Of a stretch of DNA of 64,000 bases, positions 5,896-25,428 are shown piece by piece. The stretch is from contig NZ_WTCR01000003.1 of NCBI RefSeq assembly GCF_009795715.1, positions 372,001 through 436,000 of the forward strand. Reading direction: 5' to 3'. Each line of letters starts with the position of its first letter. Position 1 is the stretch's first letter. The notes beneath the pieces are model-generated. The model saw only the letters and a program-made list of their open reading frames with translations. It was not told where the DNA came from and searched no databases. Source of the stretch: Labilibaculum euxinicum. Its GTDB lineage: Bacteria > Bacteroidota > Bacteroidia > Bacteroidales > Marinifilaceae. The position numbers and the translations under genes are program-made.

Positions 5896-6348
5896 ATGAT
5901 TGAAATTCAAAGAACGAACTCCGAAAATAAAGATTTCATTGATCTTGTTAGATTTCTTGATGCCGATTTAGCAATACGGGATGGAGAGGATCATGCTTTT
6001 TATTCTCAATTCAATAAGTTGGATCAAATTAACTATGTGGTATTGGCTTATGAAGATGGCAAACCAGTTGGTTGCGGTGCCATAAAGGAATACGAACCAT
6101 TAGTTATGGAAGTAAAGCGCATGTTTGTTTTACCGGAGTGCAGAGGGAAGGGGATTGCATCGAAAGTTTTACAGGAATTAGAAAACTGGGCCGGTGAGCT
6201 GGGATTTGAAAAATGTACATTGGAAACCGGAGTGAAACAACCCGAGGCAATCGGACTATATCAAAAGAATGGTTACCATTTTATCCCTAATTACGGGCAA
6301 TATGAAGACGTGAAGGAAAGCGTTTGTTTTGAGAAAGTATTAGGCTAA
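5896..6348 (+). CDS. GNAT-family N-acetyltransferase
   Basis: A 150-aa acyltransferase. The acetyl-CoA binding signature VKRMFVLPECRGKGIASKVLQELENWA (motif A, with the RGKGIA pyrophosphate loop) is clear, followed by the motif-B segment GLYQKNGYHF. The substrate cannot be inferred. It starts 7 nt after the LAS-type peptidase and ends the operon; the first hairpin of the downstream array may serve as its terminator. Confidence 0.9.
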   Translation: MIEIQRTNSENKDFIDLVRFLDADLAIRDGEDHAFYSQFNKLDQINYVVLAYEDGKPVGCGAIKEYEPLVMEVKRMFVLPECRGKGIASKVLQELENWAGELGFEKCTLETGVKQPEAIGLYQKNGYHFIPNYGQYEDVKESVCFEKVLG

Positions 6349-6372
6349 GAATATATAGCGGATGCGGGAATG

Positions 6373-6453
6373 AAAAAATCCGGGTCCCCACCCGGATTTT
6401 AATCTAACCACTAATAGTAACTAATCTATGAAAAAAAACATTTGTGTGTTTTT
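6373..6453 (-). ncRNA. Candidate small RNA, array copy 0
   Basis: Minus-strand unit with -7 box TACTTTTG (6467-6460), conserved TTTTTTCATAGA, a TTAGTGGTTAG segment and a perfect 10-bp terminator (6375-6384 with 6391-6400) followed by six T. Ends are estimates. The hairpin can also terminate the GNAT operon on the plus strand. Confidence 0.5.
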
Positions 6454-6576
6454 ACATTTCAAAAGTAGACAAGAGACGAGTAAACTACATTAAGATGATC
6501 TTAAGTAATTATAAACTATATGTACTCTTTTATACTTATTCAGTAGGGTTTATTTTTAACGTATTTATAAAAACAG

Positions 6577-6668
6577 AAAAAAGCCTGGATCCCCACCCAA
6601 GCTTTTCTACTAACCACTATTTACTAACCTAAATCTATTTTCTATGAAAAAACGTTTACCACTCGTTT
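6577..6668 (-). ncRNA. Candidate small RNA, array copy 1
   Basis: Minus-strand unit with -7 box TATGTTTG (6682-6675) and terminator stem 6579-6588 with 6597-6606 (one mismatch), then a six-T run. Predicted RNA about 90 nt with the UUUUUUCAUAGA core and loop GGGUGGGGAU. Confidence 0.5.
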
Positions 6669-6792
6669 ACCTTACAAACATACTGCATTCTTTCGTTAAG
6701 TGGATTTAACAAAAGTTAAAGAATGCTAAAAGGTTTCTTTACAGCCGATTCTTCTTTGCTTTTAAATCAGAAATGAAAAAAGTAGCAAACAG

Positions 6793-6884
6793 AAAAAAGC
6801 CTGGATCCCCACCCAAGCTTTTCTACTAACCACTATTTACTAACCTAAATCTATTTTCTATGAAAAAACGTTTACCACTCGTTT
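6793..6884 (-). ncRNA. Candidate small RNA, array copy 2
   Basis: Appears identical to copy 1, exactly 216 bp further on: -7 box at 6898-6891, terminator stem 6795-6804 with 6813-6822. Confidence 0.5.
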
Positions 6885-7008
6885 ACCTTACAAACATACT
6901 GCATTCTTTCGTTAAGTGGATTTAACAAAAGTTAAAGAATGCTAAAAGGTTTCTTTACAGCCGATTCTTCTTTGCTTTTAAATCAGAAATGAAAAAAGTA
7001 GCAAACAG

Positions 7009-7100
7009 AAAAAAGCCTGGATCCCCATCCAAGCTTTTCTACTAACCACTAATTACTAACCTAAATCTATTTTCTATGAAAAAACGTTTACCACTCGTTT
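7009..7100 (-). ncRNA. Candidate small RNA, array copy 3
   Basis: As copy 1 with a few substitutions (loop CCCCATCC, CTAATTAC): -7 box at 7114-7107, terminator stem 7011-7020 with 7029-7038. Confidence 0.5.
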
Positions 7101-7224
7101 ACCTTACAAACATACTGCATTCTTTCGTTAAGTGGATTTAACAAAAGTTAAAGAATGCTAAAAGGGTTTTTTACAGCTGATTCTTTTTTGCTTTTAAATC
7201 AGAAATGAAAAAAGTAGCAAACAG

Positions 7225-7317
7225 AAAAAAGCCTGGATCCCCACCCAAGCTTTTCTACTAACCACTATTTACTAACCTAAATCTACTATCTATGAAAAAA
7301 ACGTTTACCACTCGTTT
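7225..7317 (-). ncRNA. Candidate small RNA, array copy 4
   Basis: -7 box at 7331-7324, terminator stem 7227-7236 with 7245-7254. One extra A in the A-run (seven rather than six) shifts any plus-strand reading frame but leaves the RNA model intact. Confidence 0.5.
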
Positions 7318-7441
7318 ACCTTACAAACATACTGCATTCTTTCGTTAAGTGGATTTAACAAAAGTTAAAGAATGCTAAAAAGTTTTTTTACAGCTGATTC
7401 TTTTTTGCTTTAAATCAGAAATGAAAAAAAAGGGTGAACAG

Positions 7442-7534
7442 AAAAAAGCCTGAATCCCCACCCAGGCTTTTCTACTAACCACTATTTACTAACCTAAATC
7501 TACTATCTATGAAAAAAACGTTTATTATTCGTCT
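7442..7534 (-). ncRNA. Candidate small RNA, array copy 5
   Basis: -7 box TATGTTTG at 7548-7541. The terminator stem is mismatch-free here (7444-7452 with 7463-7471): the stem mismatch seen in copies 1-4 is repaired. Confidence 0.5.
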
Positions 7535-7651
7535 ACTTTACAAACATACCGCATTCTTTTGTTAAGTGCTTTTAACAGATGTTAATTGTTGCTAAAAATA
7601 CGAAGCTCGGTAAGTTTGCTGCAACATAGGTCTCCCAAAATAAATAATTTT

Positions 7652-7738
7652 AAAAAAAGCCTAGGTAATCACCTAGGCTTTTTAATCTAATCAATAACCT
7701 AAATCTATTATCTATGAAAAAACCTTTTGTATCGTCTA
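7652..7738 (-). ncRNA. Candidate small RNA, array copy 6
   Basis: Most diverged copy: -7 box TATATTTA (7752-7745, one mismatch to consensus), conserved TTTTTTCATAGA and GATTTAGGTTA, and the strongest stem (AAAAAGCCTAGGT 7654-7666 with 7671-7683, 13 bp perfect) followed by seven T on the minus strand. Confidence 0.5.
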
Positions 7739-7975
7739 TTATTATAAATATACGAAAATCTTTGATAAACGGTTATAAATAGATGTTAAAAATCCTTAAT
7801 GTGTTTTTTTACTGTTCTGAAATAGGATAAACGGGATCTGATTTTGATTGTTTCTAAATTAATCTTAGGGAATTACCTTATGGAATTTGGGCCTTATAAA
7901 AAAGAACTTTTCCATAGCTCGGGGAATTTATCTAAATTAGGCCTTTAGCAAAAATTTAACTTCTATAATTACCCC

Positions 7976-10900
7976 ATGAATGAGTCAGTACTAAATGCTC
8001 TAATGCAACTTTTTGCCATTATTGTGGATGAACAACAGGTTGGTTTTGAGGTCGCTGCGCGAGATGTTGTTTCAAAGTATTTAGTGAAGCGGTTTAGTAA
8101 GGAATGGCATGAAAGATATTTGGATAATTTCAATCGTTACCTAAAAGAATCATATTACACCAAAGGAAATAAGGATACAATTCAAAACAAGCACAAGCAA
8201 GTGGCAGATGTTTGTGCAAAATTAGTTGAGGAGGCAGAGCAGGAACAGAAAGTTTGGATTATGTTGCAGCTTCTTGAATTTATTGATGATTCTGAATTTA
8301 CAGGTCCGGAAGAACTTGGATTTGTAAAGACTGTATCGAAAGCGTTTAAGATTCCTAAAGAAGAATTTGAATACAGTCTGCAGTTTATTTTAGGAACCGA
8401 ATATTCTATTCCGTTTAATCCGTATTTATTAATTATTGATGCTAATGAAGCCTTTGAACATGAGGTTGTAAAGCATATTTTTAGTCCCAGACTACGTGGT
8501 CGGTTATTTATTCTTCATCTTGAAAGTACAAATACTTTTCTGATGAAATATTTTGGTGAATACAATCTTTTTTTAAACGGTCACAATATTAAATTGGATC
8601 GTGCCTATATACTCTCGTATGGATCTGTGATTAGAAGTCATAGAATTGACCCAATTTATTATTCTCAAATTGTATCGGTATTTATTGAGCGAAAAAATCT
8701 TTCGGATATTCGCTTCGTAGCTAAAAATATTGAATTTAAGTTCCCAGGTTCTAATAATGGTGTATTCCCGGTTAATTTTCATGTAGAATCAGGACAGCTG
8801 ATTGGAATAATGGGAGGCAGTGGTACAGGAAAATCTACATTGCTAAATGTGTTGAATGGGAATTTGCCTTTAAATCAGGGCGATATATATATTAATGGAT
8901 ATAATCTCCATAAGGATAAAGAGGAACTTGAGGGTGTTATTGGATACGTTCCTCAGGATGATTTGCTGGTTGAGGAATTAACAGTTTACCAGAATTTGTT
9001 TTTTAATGCTAAGTTATGTTTTGATAATTTAGATGAGAAAACAATTGAGAACATTATAGACGATACCATTGAAAATTTTGATTTGGTTGAAGCCAGAGAT
9101 TTAAAAGTTGGAGATCCTATTAATAAGGTTTTGAGTGGCGGACAAAGAAAGCGCTTAAATATCGCATTGGAATTAATGCGGGAACCTTCGGTTTTGTTTG
9201 TGGATGAGCCTACTTCCGGATTATCGAGTATGGATTCGGAAAAGGTGATGCTGTTGCTTAAAAGACAGGTTTTAAAAGGGAAATTGGTGATGTGTAACAT
9301 TCATCAGCCATCATCAGATATTTTTAAGCTGCTGGATAAGTTAATTATTATGGATCAAGGTGGAAAAGTGATCTATTTTGGAAATCCAATTGATGCAGTC
9401 GTCTATTTTAAAACTCAAAGCCAGTATGTTAAAGCAGATGAAAGCGAGTGCCTGACTTGTGGTAATGTAAATTCGGAGCAAATTCTAAGGATTGTGGAAA
9501 CACGGATGATGAATGAGTACGGCAGGCAAATCCGTAAAAGAAAGAGAAGTTCCGATGAATGGTATGAATTGTACAAAGAGAATATTGAAGCAAAGAATCC
9601 GGTTAAGGTGCCAAAGCGGAAACGAATGATTCCAATCAATTATTTTAGTATTCCCAAACGAACAGAACAGTTAAAGATTTATTTGGCGCGTGATGTAAAG
9701 GCCAAAATCAGCAATAAACAGTACATTTTTATTACTCTGCTTGAAGCTCCTGTTTTAGCAGTTATATTGGGATATTTCACCAAATATATTAGTGGCACGG
9801 ATGATGATCCTACGGCTTATATTTTCTCAAATAATGAAAATATCCCCTCCTTTATTTTTATGGCTGTGGTGGTATCTCTTTTTTTAGGATTGATTATTTC
9901 GGCGGAAGAAATTCTTCATGACCGGAGAATTATGAAGAGGGAATCCTTTCTAAATTTAAGCCGGTTTAGCTACTTAAACTCAAAGGTAATTGTGATGCTT
10001 GTAATTTCAGCAATTCAAACCTTGTTGTTTGTTTTAATAGCTAATACTATTCTCGAAATTAAAGGATTGACTTTAGAATATTGGTTGGTTTTGTATACGG
10101 CATCAGCCTGCGCTAATATGATTGGCTTAAATTTGTCGGCAGCCTTGAATACTGTTGTGGCGGTTTATGTTTCCATCCCTTTTATTTTGGTGCCACAGCT
10201 ATTGTTTTCAGGTGTAATTGTGAACTTTACCAAATTGCATCCAGCTATAACTTCGCAAAAATATGTGCCGTTTGTTGGCGATTTAATGACTTCGCGTTGG
10301 GCTTATGAAGCTTTAATAGTAGAACAATTCAGAAACAACGATTTTGAGAGTCAGTTTTTTGATTATGAACAAAAAATGAGCGAGGCTTCGTTTCGGTCAT
10401 CATTCTATATTCCAGAATTAAAGCAACGATACCAAAGCTGGTTGCAAACAGGTAATTTAAAACAGTTGCAGGTATTGCAGAACGAATTTGGAAAATTGGC
10501 AGACTTATATACTTTGCCAAGTGGTATGGAACTTACCGAAAACGGATTTGTGAACTCTTCGGTTGATTTGTTGGAATGGCTAAAGAAAATTAAGCAAAAC
10601 GGGTGGGCTAATTACAAAACCGAGTCAGATAAAAGAGATCAGGCTTACCTAAACTTATTGGAACAGTACGGAGGTAAAAAAGGATTGTTTGAATTCAAAC
10701 AAAAACACCATAATGAAGCTATTGAACAGATTGTTTTAAATAGAAGAGAGCTAAATAAAATTGTTGAATTTAAAGGCGAATTGATTCAATTGAAAGACCC
10801 TGTTTTTCAAATTCCCGTGAACAAAATGGGAAGAGCTCAGCTATTTTCATCTCAGAAAAGAATTGGCAATTATCTTGTGAATACTTTTTGGTTTAATGTG

Positions 10901-11044
10901 ATTATCATCTGGTTAACCAGCTTGTTTTTTTACTTTACACTTTATTTCGATGCTTTAAGAAGACTATTACTTCTGATAGAAATATTATGGGTGAAAATAC
11001 TCCCCGAAGGTCACATACGAATTACCAGAAAACGTCTGAAGTAA
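7976..11044 (+). CDS. ABCG-type ABC transporter, ATPase fused to permease, with N-terminal extension
   Basis: A 1022-aa half-size exporter with the ABCG/White domain order (ATPase first). Residues 1-240 are a soluble helical region with no recognised motif, resembling the TerB-like/regulatory extensions seen in Bacteroidota homologues. The ATPase follows: Walker A GGSGTGKST (280-288), signature LSGGQRKR (387-394), Walker B VLFVDEPTSG (406-415) and the H-loop in NIHQPSSD. Residues about 580-1000 contain several membrane segments of an ABC-2 permease, interrupted by a large soluble loop of about 150 residues before the last membrane segment. The substrate is unknown. Transcribed alone, with a terminator right after it. 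Confidence 0.85.
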   Translation: MNESVLNALMQLFAIIVDEQQVGFEVAARDVVSKYLVKRFSKEWHERYLDNFNRYLKESYYTKGNKDTIQNKHKQVADVCAKLVEEAEQEQKVWIMLQLLEFIDDSEFTGPEELGFVKTVSKAFKIPKEEFEYSLQFILGTEYSIPFNPYLLIIDANEAFEHEVVKHIFSPRLRGRLFILHLESTNTFLMKYFGEYNLFLNGHNIKLDRAYILSYGSVIRSHRIDPIYYSQIVSVFIERKNLSDIRFVAKNIEFKFPGSNNGVFPVNFHVESGQLIGIMGGSGTGKSTLLNVLNGNLPLNQGDIYINGYNLHKDKEELEGVIGYVPQDDLLVEELTVYQNLFFNAKLCFDNLDEKTIENIIDDTIENFDLVEARDLKVGDPINKVLSGGQRKRLNIALELMREPSVLFVDEPTSGLSSMDSEKVMLLLKRQVLKGKLVMCNIHQPSSDIFKLLDKLIIMDQGGKVIYFGNPIDAVVYFKTQSQYVKADESECLTCGNVNSEQILRIVETRMMNEYGRQIRKRKRSSDEWYELYKENIEAKNPVKVPKRKRMIPINYFSIPKRTEQLKIYLARDVKAKISNKQYIFITLLEAPVLAVILGYFTKYISGTDDDPTAYIFSNNENIPSFIFMAVVVSLFLGLIISAEEILHDRRIMKRESFLNLSRFSYLNSKVIVMLVISAIQTLLFVLIANTILEIKGLTLEYWLVLYTASACANMIGLNLSAALNTVVAVYVSIPFILVPQLLFSGVIVNFTKLHPAITSQKYVPFVGDLMTSRWAYEALIVEQFRNNDFESQFFDYEQKMSEASFRSSFYIPELKQRYQSWLQTGNLKQLQVLQNEFGKLADLYTLPSGMELTENGFVNSSVDLLEWLKKIKQNGWANYKTESDKRDQAYLNLLEQYGGKKGLFEFKQKHHNEAIEQIVLNRRELNKIVEFKGELIQLKDPVFQIPVNKMGRAQLFSSQKRIGNYLVNTFWFNVIIIWLTSLFFYFTLYFDALRRLLLLIEILWVKILPEGHIRITRKRLK

Positions 11045-22017: not shown

Positions 22018-25000
22018 ATGGAAAAATCTGTAATATATGCTTTTAATAGGCATATAATTAACACCCGTAAGATTTTACTGAAGATGAAATTGGTTGTTCT
22101 GCTAACATTTTTATTATCGTTTCAACTTTCTGCAAGTGTTAAATCGCAGAATAGAGTTACTTTGGAACTTAAAGGTGTTAGCTACGAGCAAGTTTTGTCT
22201 GAGTTCAAAAAACAAGCTGATATTATTATCATATATAGTAATGATGAGTTTGATTATAGTAGAAAAACCGATGTTAGTTTCAGGGATTTAGAAGTGGTTG
22301 AAGCTGTAAAAAGTTTATTGAAAGGAACCAACCTTACTTATAAGCAATCTGAAGAGTACATTATAATCAAACCAAAACAAGAAATCCAAAAAGTTTCACC
22401 TCCCCAACCAAAGGATAATAAAAAGAAAATTATTGGAAGTGTCATGGACAGTAATGGTGTACCATTGCCAGGAGTAAATATAATTGTAAAAGGAACTACA
22501 ATTGGAACAATTACCAACATGAACGGGAAGTTTGTTATTGAGGTTGAAGCTGAGACTGGAAAGCTTCTGCAATATAGTTTTATAGGCTATAAAACTGTTG
22601 AGTTGCCGATAGATAATAATGATGTTTTTGATGTAGAAATGCTTGAAGATTTTTCTATGCTCGACCAGGTAATTGTTTCCGGAGTGGCAATGGGAACCGA
22701 AAAAAAGAAAATGTCGGTGTCGGTAGCTAAAGTAAGTTCAAAGGATCTAACCAATGTACCACAATCTTCGGTTTCGGCTTCACTTCAAGGAAAAATTGCA
22801 GGAGTAAGCGTTGTATCCGGAGATGGTTCTCCGGGATCCGGTTCTTCAATTATTCTTCGTGGTGCTACAAGCTTAACGGGAAGTCAGTCACCCATGATTT
22901 TGTTAGACGGAATGATCATGCAAGGTTCCTTATCTGATATTAATGTTGATGATATTGAGTCAATTGAAGTGGTAAAAGGAGCGGCAGCATCTGCTCTTTA
23001 TGGTTCCAGGGCTGGTAATGGAGTCATTGTAGTTATATCCAAACGAGGAGCCAGCTTACCCGATAATACAACAAAAGTAACAGTACGAAATGAGATTGGG
23101 ATTCAGAAAGTTACAAATTTATTAGATCTGGCAGAACACCATCCCTATTTATTAGCTAATGATTGGCAGGAAGTGGATACTTACACCAAATATGCTACTG
23201 TTAACTACCCCACAGATTATGTTTCAGGCTATAATCCGAACATCGAAGGAAACCGGATTTTACTTGACAATGGAATGATGACCCAGCCATTTAGATTATA
23301 CAACGATGTGCAGAACGAAATGTTTGAAAGTGGAGTGAGTTATACCAATTTCATTAGTGTAGCTGCAAAATTGAATCAAACCAATTTATATTTGTCCTTC
23401 GAAAATCATAACAACGAAGGAATTTTAAAAGAAACCGGAGGTTACGATCGTCAGAGTTTTAGAATAAATGTTGATCATGCCATAAATAGCAAAATCAGGA
23501 TAAAAGCAAGTAATAACCTGATTTTAACCGAAAATGACATGCCTGGAGGTGGAAATGAGGCTTTTGGCCGGGTTGTTATGATGGAGCCTGATGTAAATCT
23601 GTACCAGAACAATGCAAATGGTTCCCCTTATAATTTTGCCCCAAACCAATGGAACCAAATCGTATTCAATCCACTCTACGAACTCTACAATAAATCAAAT
23701 GTTTCAGAAAAAACCAGGTTTATAGGCACTTATGAGCTGAGTTGGATACTTGCCGACTGGCTGAGTTTTAAGGCAAGTTATGGAATCGAAAGTCAGGATT
23801 ACCGGAGACTTGCTTACACTCCCAAAGGAATGTATACAGGCATCGATGGAGATGGCTTCTCGGAGTCTCCCGGATATTTGGATAACTACACTTCAAAAAT
23901 TAAAAATCAGAATTACAGAGCTACGTTAAGTTTTTTCGATACTTGGGGCGATATGGAATTTAATGCCCGGCTTAGTTATTTAAGTGAAGACAACCATTTT
24001 GAAACTGCAGGCGGATACGGTCGTGATTTCGATTTTGCAGGCATGCCTTCCTTTTCCATTATTTCTGATGAAAACATGTATTTTAGAGATAGTTATGAAG
24101 ACATTAAAGCTGAAAATATTTTTGCGATTGCTTCTTTTACTTTTAAAGACAGATACATTCTTGATGGTTTATTTCGTCGCGATGGTTCTTCATTATTTGG
24201 TTCAGAAGAAAGATGGCATAATTATTACCGTGTTTCGGCTGCCTACAGAATCTCACAGGATGTGAAAATTCCCGGAATTGATGAATTAAAAATTAGAGGT
24301 GCAATTGGAACTTCAGGACAAAGACCCGTTTTTTCATTACAATATGAAACCTACAGTACAGTATCAGGGGTATATCAAAAATCGACCTTGGGAAATAAGA
24401 ATTTGAAACCTTCCGAATCCAGAGAGATCGAAGTAGGAATTGATATGACATTCTTAAAGCGATTTAACCTTGAGGCTACCTACTCAAACACGGAAACTTC
24501 AGATCAATTTTTGAAAGTTCCATTATTGGTTCATCAGGGCGGTTTTCCTTACCAATGGAAAAACGCAGGAACTTTGGAGACAAATACTTTTGAAGCCATG
24601 CTTCATGCCAACATCATAAATAAGAAAAACCTTAACTGGGATTTGAGATTTACATTCGACAAAACAAAATCGGAAATTACCAAACTTGATGTTCCGGCAT
24701 ACAGAACAGGTCCGCAAAGCAGTTTTTACATTCAGGAAGGCGAAGCATACGGAATAATGTATGGAAGAAAATTTGTGCACACTCTTGAACAAATGCAAGC
24801 TCAGATACCCGATGGAGAAAGCATTACTAATTATGCGTTGAATAATGAAGGCTTTGTCATCGAAAACGGAACAGAGGGAACCCGAAACGAATCTCCCATT
24901 CTCTTAAAAGATGAGCAAGACAATCCTATTACTCAAAAAATTGGAGACATAAACCCTGATTTTAGAATGGGGTTAACATCCAGCCTAAGTTATAAGGATT

Positions 25001-25428
25001 TTGGTTTCTTTATGTTGTGGAAATGGAAGCAGGGAGGAGATGTGTACAACAGTACCGCTCAGAAAATGGTTAATCACAACCGACATCCTATGATGGATCA
25101 ATTTGGTAAATCTCCTGAAGCAATGAAAACCATCGATTACTATTTGGGTCTGTACAACAGCCAGTCAATTAATGAATTTTGGATTGAAGATGGAACTTAC
25201 CTTCGCTTAGCTGAAGCTTCGGTTAAATACACTCTGAAAGGTGAAAAATTAGGCCGCTTGGGAAAATATGTTGAATCGGTAAAATTTGGAATCATAGGAA
25301 AGAACCTACTCACTTTTACCAATTATTCGGGTTACGACCCGGAAGTTACGTTTGATGGTTATGCTTTTGATAATACGGGATACCCGAATTTCACAACCTA
25401 TTCCTTTTCTGTTAACATTGAATTTTAG
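22018..25428 (+). CDS. SusC/RagA TonB-dependent outer membrane receptor with STN domain
   Basis: A 1136-aa outer membrane barrel that imports oligomers with energy from TonB. Order: signal peptide (about 20-43), STN (secretin/TonB short N-terminal) domain about 47-115, CarboxypepD_reg-like domain 137-215, SusC plug with VIVSGVAMGTEKKKMSVSVA, LQGKIAGVSVVSGDG and IEVVKGAAASALYGSRAGNG, then the beta barrel ending with a terminal aromatic residue (NIEF). The STN domain is the signalling input to FecR, so this receptor both transports and reports substrate. The usual SusD partner follows 146 nt downstream. The substrate class cannot be read from the receptor itself. Confidence 0.95.
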   Translation: MEKSVIYAFNRHIINTRKILLKMKLVVLLTFLLSFQLSASVKSQNRVTLELKGVSYEQVLSEFKKQADIIIIYSNDEFDYSRKTDVSFRDLEVVEAVKSLLKGTNLTYKQSEEYIIIKPKQEIQKVSPPQPKDNKKKIIGSVMDSNGVPLPGVNIIVKGTTIGTITNMNGKFVIEVEAETGKLLQYSFIGYKTVELPIDNNDVFDVEMLEDFSMLDQVIVSGVAMGTEKKKMSVSVAKVSSKDLTNVPQSSVSASLQGKIAGVSVVSGDGSPGSGSSIILRGATSLTGSQSPMILLDGMIMQGSLSDINVDDIESIEVVKGAAASALYGSRAGNGVIVVISKRGASLPDNTTKVTVRNEIGIQKVTNLLDLAEHHPYLLANDWQEVDTYTKYATVNYPTDYVSGYNPNIEGNRILLDNGMMTQPFRLYNDVQNEMFESGVSYTNFISVAAKLNQTNLYLSFENHNNEGILKETGGYDRQSFRINVDHAINSKIRIKASNNLILTENDMPGGGNEAFGRVVMMEPDVNLYQNNANGSPYNFAPNQWNQIVFNPLYELYNKSNVSEKTRFIGTYELSWILADWLSFKASYGIESQDYRRLAYTPKGMYTGIDGDGFSESPGYLDNYTSKIKNQNYRATLSFFDTWGDMEFNARLSYLSEDNHFETAGGYGRDFDFAGMPSFSIISDENMYFRDSYEDIKAENIFAIASFTFKDRYILDGLFRRDGSSLFGSEERWHNYYRVSAAYRISQDVKIPGIDELKIRGAIGTSGQRPVFSLQYETYSTVSGVYQKSTLGNKNLKPSESREIEVGIDMTFLKRFNLEATYSNTETSDQFLKVPLLVHQGGFPYQWKNAGTLETNTFEAMLHANIINKKNLNWDLRFTFDKTKSEITKLDVPAYRTGPQSSFYIQEGEAYGIMYGRKFVHTLEQMQAQIPDGESITNYALNNEGFVIENGTEGTRNESPILLKDEQDNPITQKIGDINPDFRMGLTSSLSYKDFGFFMLWKWKQGGDVYNSTAQKMVNHNRHPMMDQFGKSPEAMKTIDYYLGLYNSQSINEFWIEDGTYLRLAEASVKYTLKGEKLGRLGKYVESVKFGIIGKNLLTFTNYSGYDPEVTFDGYAFDNTGYPNFTTYSFSVNIEF

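Follow-up and report, generated by a model that had tools for sequence, protein, structure and literature searches.

The 64,000-nt stretch of the Labilibaculum euxinicum genome analysed here (the window) carries on its minus strand an array of seven similar units, which are probably tandemly multiplied genes for FopS-type small RNAs, predicted repressors of SusC that apparently act free of RbpB. The conserved 5′ region of these units is complementary to the translation starts of SusC genes, and this is the new observation of the present work. The preliminary description of the array gave neither a family nor a function, and proposals for both can now be made. A search of the open-licence literature by title or abstract opening found no description of such arrays. 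The data place a probable FopS homologue, in the form of variable tandem arrays, in Marinifilaceae genomes in which neither RRM_1 nor Hfq was detected, and they allow tests of whether FopS can act without RbpB, of how the dosage of small RNAs evolves and of whether SusC starts are generally under selection by such RNAs.

Architecture of the array

The array is flanked by genes for a GNAT acetyltransferase (5896-6348) and an ABC transporter (7976-11044), both assigned by Pfam. Each copy has the same order of parts, namely a TAnnTTT(G/A) box, a leader of 21-22 nt, a T-run with CATAGA, one or two GGTTA boxes, a hairpin and at least six T. The RNA start was predicted as the fifth base after the -7 box. 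On this basis copy 6 is predicted at 7652-7740 (89 nt), with its box TATATTTA at 7745-7752 and its T-run with CATAGA at 7719. The box TATGTTTG is shared by copy 5 (7442-7536, 95 nt; box 7541-7548, T-run 7514), copy 4 (7225-7319, 95 nt; box 7324-7331, T-run 7297), copy 3 (7009-7102, 94 nt; box 7107-7114, T-run 7081), copy 2 (6793-6886, 94 nt; box 6891-6898, T-run 6865) and copy 1 (6577-6670, 94 nt; box 6675-6682, T-run 6649). Copy 0, the most divergent, is predicted at 6373-6455 (83 nt), with the box TACTTTTG at 6460-6467 and the T-run at 6433; it lacks the first GGTTAG box, and copy 6 lacks the second. The seven copies, their strand and the one, five and one occurrences of the three box variants thus agree with the preliminary description, and the stems which it reported as preserved with differing sequence in the divergent copies were also located.

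The hairpin was analysed in an alignment (A4) of 108 copies, 96 of them distinct, in which 43 of the 47 sources were picked by an exact pattern, and in which a wrong-strand hairpin match (L114:6683-6754, 29.5 bits) and a cut-off match (L116) are both counted. Among the 96 distinct homologues, the 14-pair hairpin has standard pairs in 96.5% of its cells and 254 cells are changed on both sides, each value being reached by none of 500 shuffles, and 10 of the 14 pairs show changes on both sides (equalled in 2 of 500 shuffles); the alignment had been fitted to the covariance model, which somewhat favours the hairpin structure. Controls in which the structure was slid score far below the real hairpin. 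The compensatory changes that had been expected on aligning more homologues are therefore present, and the divergent copies keep the 5′ region with stems altered in this compensatory manner. The conservation of the seed in columns 4-14 and 20-31 of A4 is partly due to the selection by exact pattern; the GGTTA boxes are conserved also in columns 33-46, which are outside that pattern.

Of 101 distinct upstream sequences, 90 carry the promoter box TAnnTTT(G/A) at a distance of 16-31 nt ahead of the T-run, against a mean of 12.1 and a maximum of 20 in dinucleotide shuffles, after 6 of the 108 rows with too short an upstream sequence were dropped. Seven of the 11 upstreams without a box at that distance belong to Ancylomarina copies (L106, L115), and one is the wrong-strand match in L114. 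These Ancylomarina copies carry a hairpin-like insert between the promoter box and the seed, so that the leader is about 40 nt longer and the box is farther up. The predicted lengths of 83-95 nt, the covarying hairpin and the recurring promoter box favour the original proposal of independent small RNA genes of 80-95 nt, each presumably expressed by itself.

The canonical sigma-ABfr promoter has TAnnTTTG at -7 and TTTG at -33. The consulted part of PMC7366714 gives TAnnTTTG/TTTG as the consensus and states that the -33 part had not been found in Flavobacterium johnsoniae. The preliminary description had likewise found no clear -33 element, and this holds for TTTG at the usual spacing, which is absent from the consensus of the homologue upstreams; it does not hold for conserved sequence as such, as the 90 upstreams with the box instead share TTAAC-N15-TTA(A/G)C, a direct repeat located in front of the box at -37 and -17. 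This repeat is possibly the site of an activator or of an alternative sigma contact.

Tandem Repeats Finder reports the inner units at 6571-7585 as a repeat of period 216 with 4.7 copies and 95% matches, which includes the TTAAC-N15-TTAAC promoter repeat. The three central units of the five 216-bp inner units are 96-99% alike within the window, the figure is 97% for the two central units of the corresponding array in Labilibaculum manganireducens (L114), and the likeness between the central units of the two species is 93-95%, so the central units are being homogenised within species. The last inner unit has its nearest relative in its counterpart in L. manganireducens (97%), and so, narrowly, has the first (93% vs 91-92%). 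Against the 7 copies here, there are 6 at the corresponding locus of L. manganireducens and 4 at that of Labilibaculum sp. K2S. The likeness of inner units within species, together with the 6 copies of L. manganireducens, speaks for the recent multiplication of copies suggested earlier. The contigs L100 and L104 of the MAG ZodW_Metabat.94 start inside the array, and short-read assemblies may consequently under-count the copies. A blastn search of 1,001 bases of the array against phages and plasmids, made for mobile elements, gave no match.

Relatives and the link to FopS

No Rfam family matches the window at the gathering threshold. Once the threshold is opened, each of the seven copies matches positions 1-71 of FopS (RF04319, BTncRNA_FopS) on the minus strand, at 31.3, 30.0, 30.2, 23.9, 24.9, 24.9 and 18.5 bits for copies 6 to 0, none of them reaching the gathering score of 56 bits, and the host genome as a whole has no RF04319 match over the cut-off. 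The four copies on L006 and L007 align to the same model (4/4), and the best score among the relatives seen, 42.9 bits, belongs to an Ancylomarina copy. Unrelated families such as BSnc120 and MicC also match below threshold, BSnc120 in the array stretch even with a better E-value than FopS, and for this reason the weak FopS matches alone prove little. The weak hits to BSnc120, MicC, STnc430, MicX and rteR were dismissed as due to the terminator or to chance.

A search in the opposite direction gives stronger evidence. A covariance model, R1, was built from eight copies of the host genome only, and scores copies 6 to 0 at 81.2, 101.6, 102.8, 101.5, 100.4, 100.4 and 46.3 bits. It finds four loci in other families of the order (L060, L064, L067 and L068) at E≤0.0018, and these score 61-70 bits for RF04319, above the cut-off; the other 12 of the 16 rescored loci found by R1 do not reach 56 bits. 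As far as can be judged from these sequences, the array RNAs are probable homologues of FopS.

The likeness extends to a multicopy state, own promoters with the TAnnTTTG box, the 5′ consensus T-run-CAT(A/G)G..TAGATTTAAGGTTA, an unstructured 5′ half, a terminator hairpin and a pairing with susC start regions, which is published for FopS and predicted here. The array copies differ from FopS in falling below the Rfam cut-off, in their tandem arrangement, in an often present second GGTTAG box, in a distance from box to T-run of 21-22 nt in the window copies against about 7 nt in L060, L064, L067 and L068, in having TTAAC repeats and no TTTG at -33, and in a host without a detected RRM_1 protein. 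GibS (RF04182) shares a common 5′ seed of the R1 type and aligns below threshold with some copies, but its model has 142 positions and, in the consulted parts of PMC7366714 and PMC11697453, it is given a second seed, R2, and a promoter, PM2. BTnc231 (RF04180) aligns with the array copies in its 5′ ACGUUUUUUUCAUAGA and its terminator; it has, however, 154 positions with a middle part that is absent from the array copies, which score 19-31 bits against 80.4. The preliminary description had also suggested Flavo-1 and Bacteroidales-1, which are noncoding RNAs of Bacteroidota too. The covariance search that it had proposed did yield homologues across the family and the order, but neither of these two is among the listed Rfam matches of the window or of the other copies.

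About five further copies were tracked outside the array in the host genome (5.06 Mb). Four of them form pairs on the contigs C1 and C39, and one is on C22 (L046; C22:356223-356293, minus strand; R1 E 1.5e-4). At E≤0.01, R1 matches 11 places in this genome; copy C39a is not among them and was placed by the FopS model (E 1.2) and inspection. A weaker candidate at C38:221104-221176, plus strand (L009 1501-1573; RF04319 30.7 bits, E 0.024), has TAGATTTA upstream and equal-scoring matches in four other genomes of the genus, and is perhaps an orthologous extra copy. The exact pattern found 43 stretches in the GTDB collection, all from Marinifilum, Labilibaculum, Ancylomarina or Marinifilaceae MAGs. 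Within the family, 50 of 56 genomes have an R1 match at E≤0.01, the number being 11 in the host, 3-16 in 22 other genomes and 0-2 in the remaining 33. Across the order, 33 of 149 genomes were matched, the host included, some of them doubtfully. Among 30 order-level loci examined, L063, L077 and L078 overlap the starts of ORFs of 345, 125 and 201 aa and were rejected, as were six of 30 (L046 and 29 others, with L059 left out) in which CAT is missing at the expected place.

FopS is known from Bacteroidaceae as part of a circuit linked to RbpB, to which it binds; according to the consulted part of PMC11697453, FopS-10 pairs next to the susC start codon and blocks translation in vitro, and RbpB relieves this block. 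Further traits of FopS are induction by bile salts and in vivo repression of susC. The partner protein was searched for with PF00076 (RRM_1), which has no match in the host genome, the Bacteroides ihuae control being positive. RRM_1 is present in 28 of the 56 family genomes and in none of the 23 with three or more R1 matches, although the multicopy genomes may be one clade and this contrast then a single one. The 28 RRM-bearing genomes have 0-2 R1 matches and 0-1 FopS-model matches at E≤0.1, and five other genomes without RRM_1 also have only 0-2 R1 matches. Hfq was found in none of the 56 family genomes. The lack of RRM_1 in multicopy genomes is no general rule, since Bacteroides thetaiotaomicron has, in the consulted part of PMC11697453, 14 FopS paralogues alongside RbpB.

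Complementarity to SusC translation starts

Gene starts of the type ...AACCTAAATCTA..ATGAAAAAA are complementary to the conserved 5′ region, and in agreement with this several antisense matches of the FopS model in the host genome fall on gene starts. An exact-pattern search of the host genome for target starts returned 8 places, all of them the sRNA copies themselves, and looser duplex scoring was therefore used. The background consisted of 610 ORFs from 40 sampled 20-kb stretches and the window, and the SusC set comprised the 30 best of the 35 SusC/RagA genes that passed the family cut-off. Start codons were called by a simple script with a signal-peptide heuristic for SusC and likewise for the controls in the host, Marinifilum flexuosum and G157 comparisons; an earlier comparison with first ATGs for the background was superseded by this like-for-like calling.

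With duplex energies that ignore mRNA structure, the seed c5 pairs with the 30 SusC starts at a mean of -17.9 kcal/mol; the corresponding means are -11.0 in 606 other genes (p 5e-12) and -12.7 in 92 matched secretory M[KR] genes (p 6e-7). Shuffled c5 seeds on the same SusC starts give a mean of -10.9, and none of 100 is as low. Seven of the 12 seeds were compared with matched secretory genes and all of them differ (p 4e-7 to 0.006). The pairing is centred on the start codon: for c5, every start-codon base is paired in at least 80% of the 30 genes, and when the target region is slid by 20 the SusC energies are -16.4 to -17.4 kcal/mol at -10 and +10 and -8.5 to -12.6 elsewhere. The best duplex over the 12 seeds is weaker than -16 kcal/mol in 7 of the 30 SusC genes, and the one SusC gene located in the window (22426-25425) does not go beyond -11.2 kcal/mol.

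The same was found in a second genus, where 15 SusC starts of M. flexuosum give -17.6 to -18.5 kcal/mol and pair more strongly than 32 matched genes (p 2e-5 to 0.003). Another family member, G157, has RRM proteins and a single weak R1 match; its 15 SusC starts give -12.7 to -13.3 kcal/mol and do not differ significantly from 56 matched genes (p 0.08-0.2). They nevertheless outdo the full set of other genes (p 4e-4 to 0.003) as well as the shuffles (0 of 50), so SusC starts in general carry part of the signal. A weaker complementarity is thus general, and its strong form accompanies the multicopy family in the three genomes tested.

The enrichment over all genes is modest: at -13 kcal/mol the start counts exceed all 10 shuffles for 11 of the 12 seeds, c0 being the exception, and ATG alone explains part of this, because internal ATGs also outscore shuffled seeds on gene starts. 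Pfam was run on ten of the 40 best-pairing genes listed. Their products are two curlin-repeat proteins, three proteins with domains of the TonB plug or carboxypeptidase-regulatory kind, a family 92 glycoside hydrolase, a sodium/proton exchanger, a prolyl oligopeptidase, an outer-membrane barrel and one protein without a match.

Proposed mechanism and competing explanations

Repression of SusC translation is the most likely role of the array RNAs, judging from this complementarity and by analogy with FopS-10. Each of the seven genes would be transcribed independently from its own TAnnTTTG promoter, under some physiological trigger, into an RNA of about 83-95 nt with an intrinsic terminator at its end. 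The 5′ half (T-run-CATAGA - TAGATTTAGGTTAGT - TAGTGGTTAG), unstructured for the most part, would be antisense to initiation regions of the type ...ACTAACCTAAATCTA..ATGAAAAAA and would pair over the start codon and about 30 nt before it in many SusC/RagA mRNAs and in those of some other exported proteins. Such pairing may block ribosome entry, as was demonstrated experimentally for FopS-10 of B. thetaiotaomicron, and multiplication of the genes may raise the dosage of the RNA. Since RRM_1 was not found, the RNAs would act either free of a chaperone or with a different one.

A wider reading is possible, but we hold it only tentatively and it is rather doubtful as a whole: the RRM-less branch of Marinifilaceae may have evolved a blanket brake on SusC translation that is tunable by copy number and needs no Hfq- or RRM-type chaperone, with tandem arrays recombining under the TTAAC-repeat promoter. 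In place of the RbpB-tuned circuit of Bacteroides, regulation would here rest on gene dosage and on long AT-rich seeds (30-35 nt), and SusC starts would be kept complementary.

The small RNAs could instead be mainly protein-binding decoys, whose repeated GGTTAG boxes soak up an RNA-binding protein and which have no antisense role. CsrB-type sponges are known in other systems, each array RNA has one or two GGTTA boxes, and these are conserved also outside the stretch used for homologue selection. The binding of RbpB by FopS, reported in the consulted part of PMC11697453, points the same way. We consider this explanation unlikely, however, as searches for two RNA-binding families found neither RRM_1 in the multicopy genomes, the host included (0/23), nor Hfq in the family as a whole (0/56), and a decoy does not predict a complement to SusC starts which is far beyond the controls and centred on the start codon.

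It is similarly improbable that the units are generic intergenic promoter and terminator repeats, spread by recombination and transcribed with no selected targets. Recombination does shape the array, as is seen from the 7, 6 and 4 copies in three Labilibaculum-type genomes and from the likeness of inner units within species, but divergent copies keep the 5′ region while their stems change in a compensatory way, and the SusC complementarity recurs in Marinifilum and is far weaker in G157, which lacks the multicopy family. A functional plus strand, carrying tandem leader mini-genes that start with the signal-peptide-like ATGAAAAAA behind a bidirectional terminator, is hardly credible: all seven window copies do read ATGAAAAA and the antisense FopS-model matches elsewhere in the genome are gene starts, but the promoter box and the T-tract indicate the minus strand, and the plus-strand ORFs from this ATG (104 of 108 copies) have 4-74 aa with a median of 17, their length and frame varying between lineages.

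Apart from the predicted repression of SusC by the array, the copy on C22 has a variant seed (TAAGGTTTAAAGTGA) that pairs at -27 to -29 kcal/mol with the starts of two neighbouring curlin-repeat genes (L153 7773 and 9754), and these genes are possibly a specialised target of that copy.
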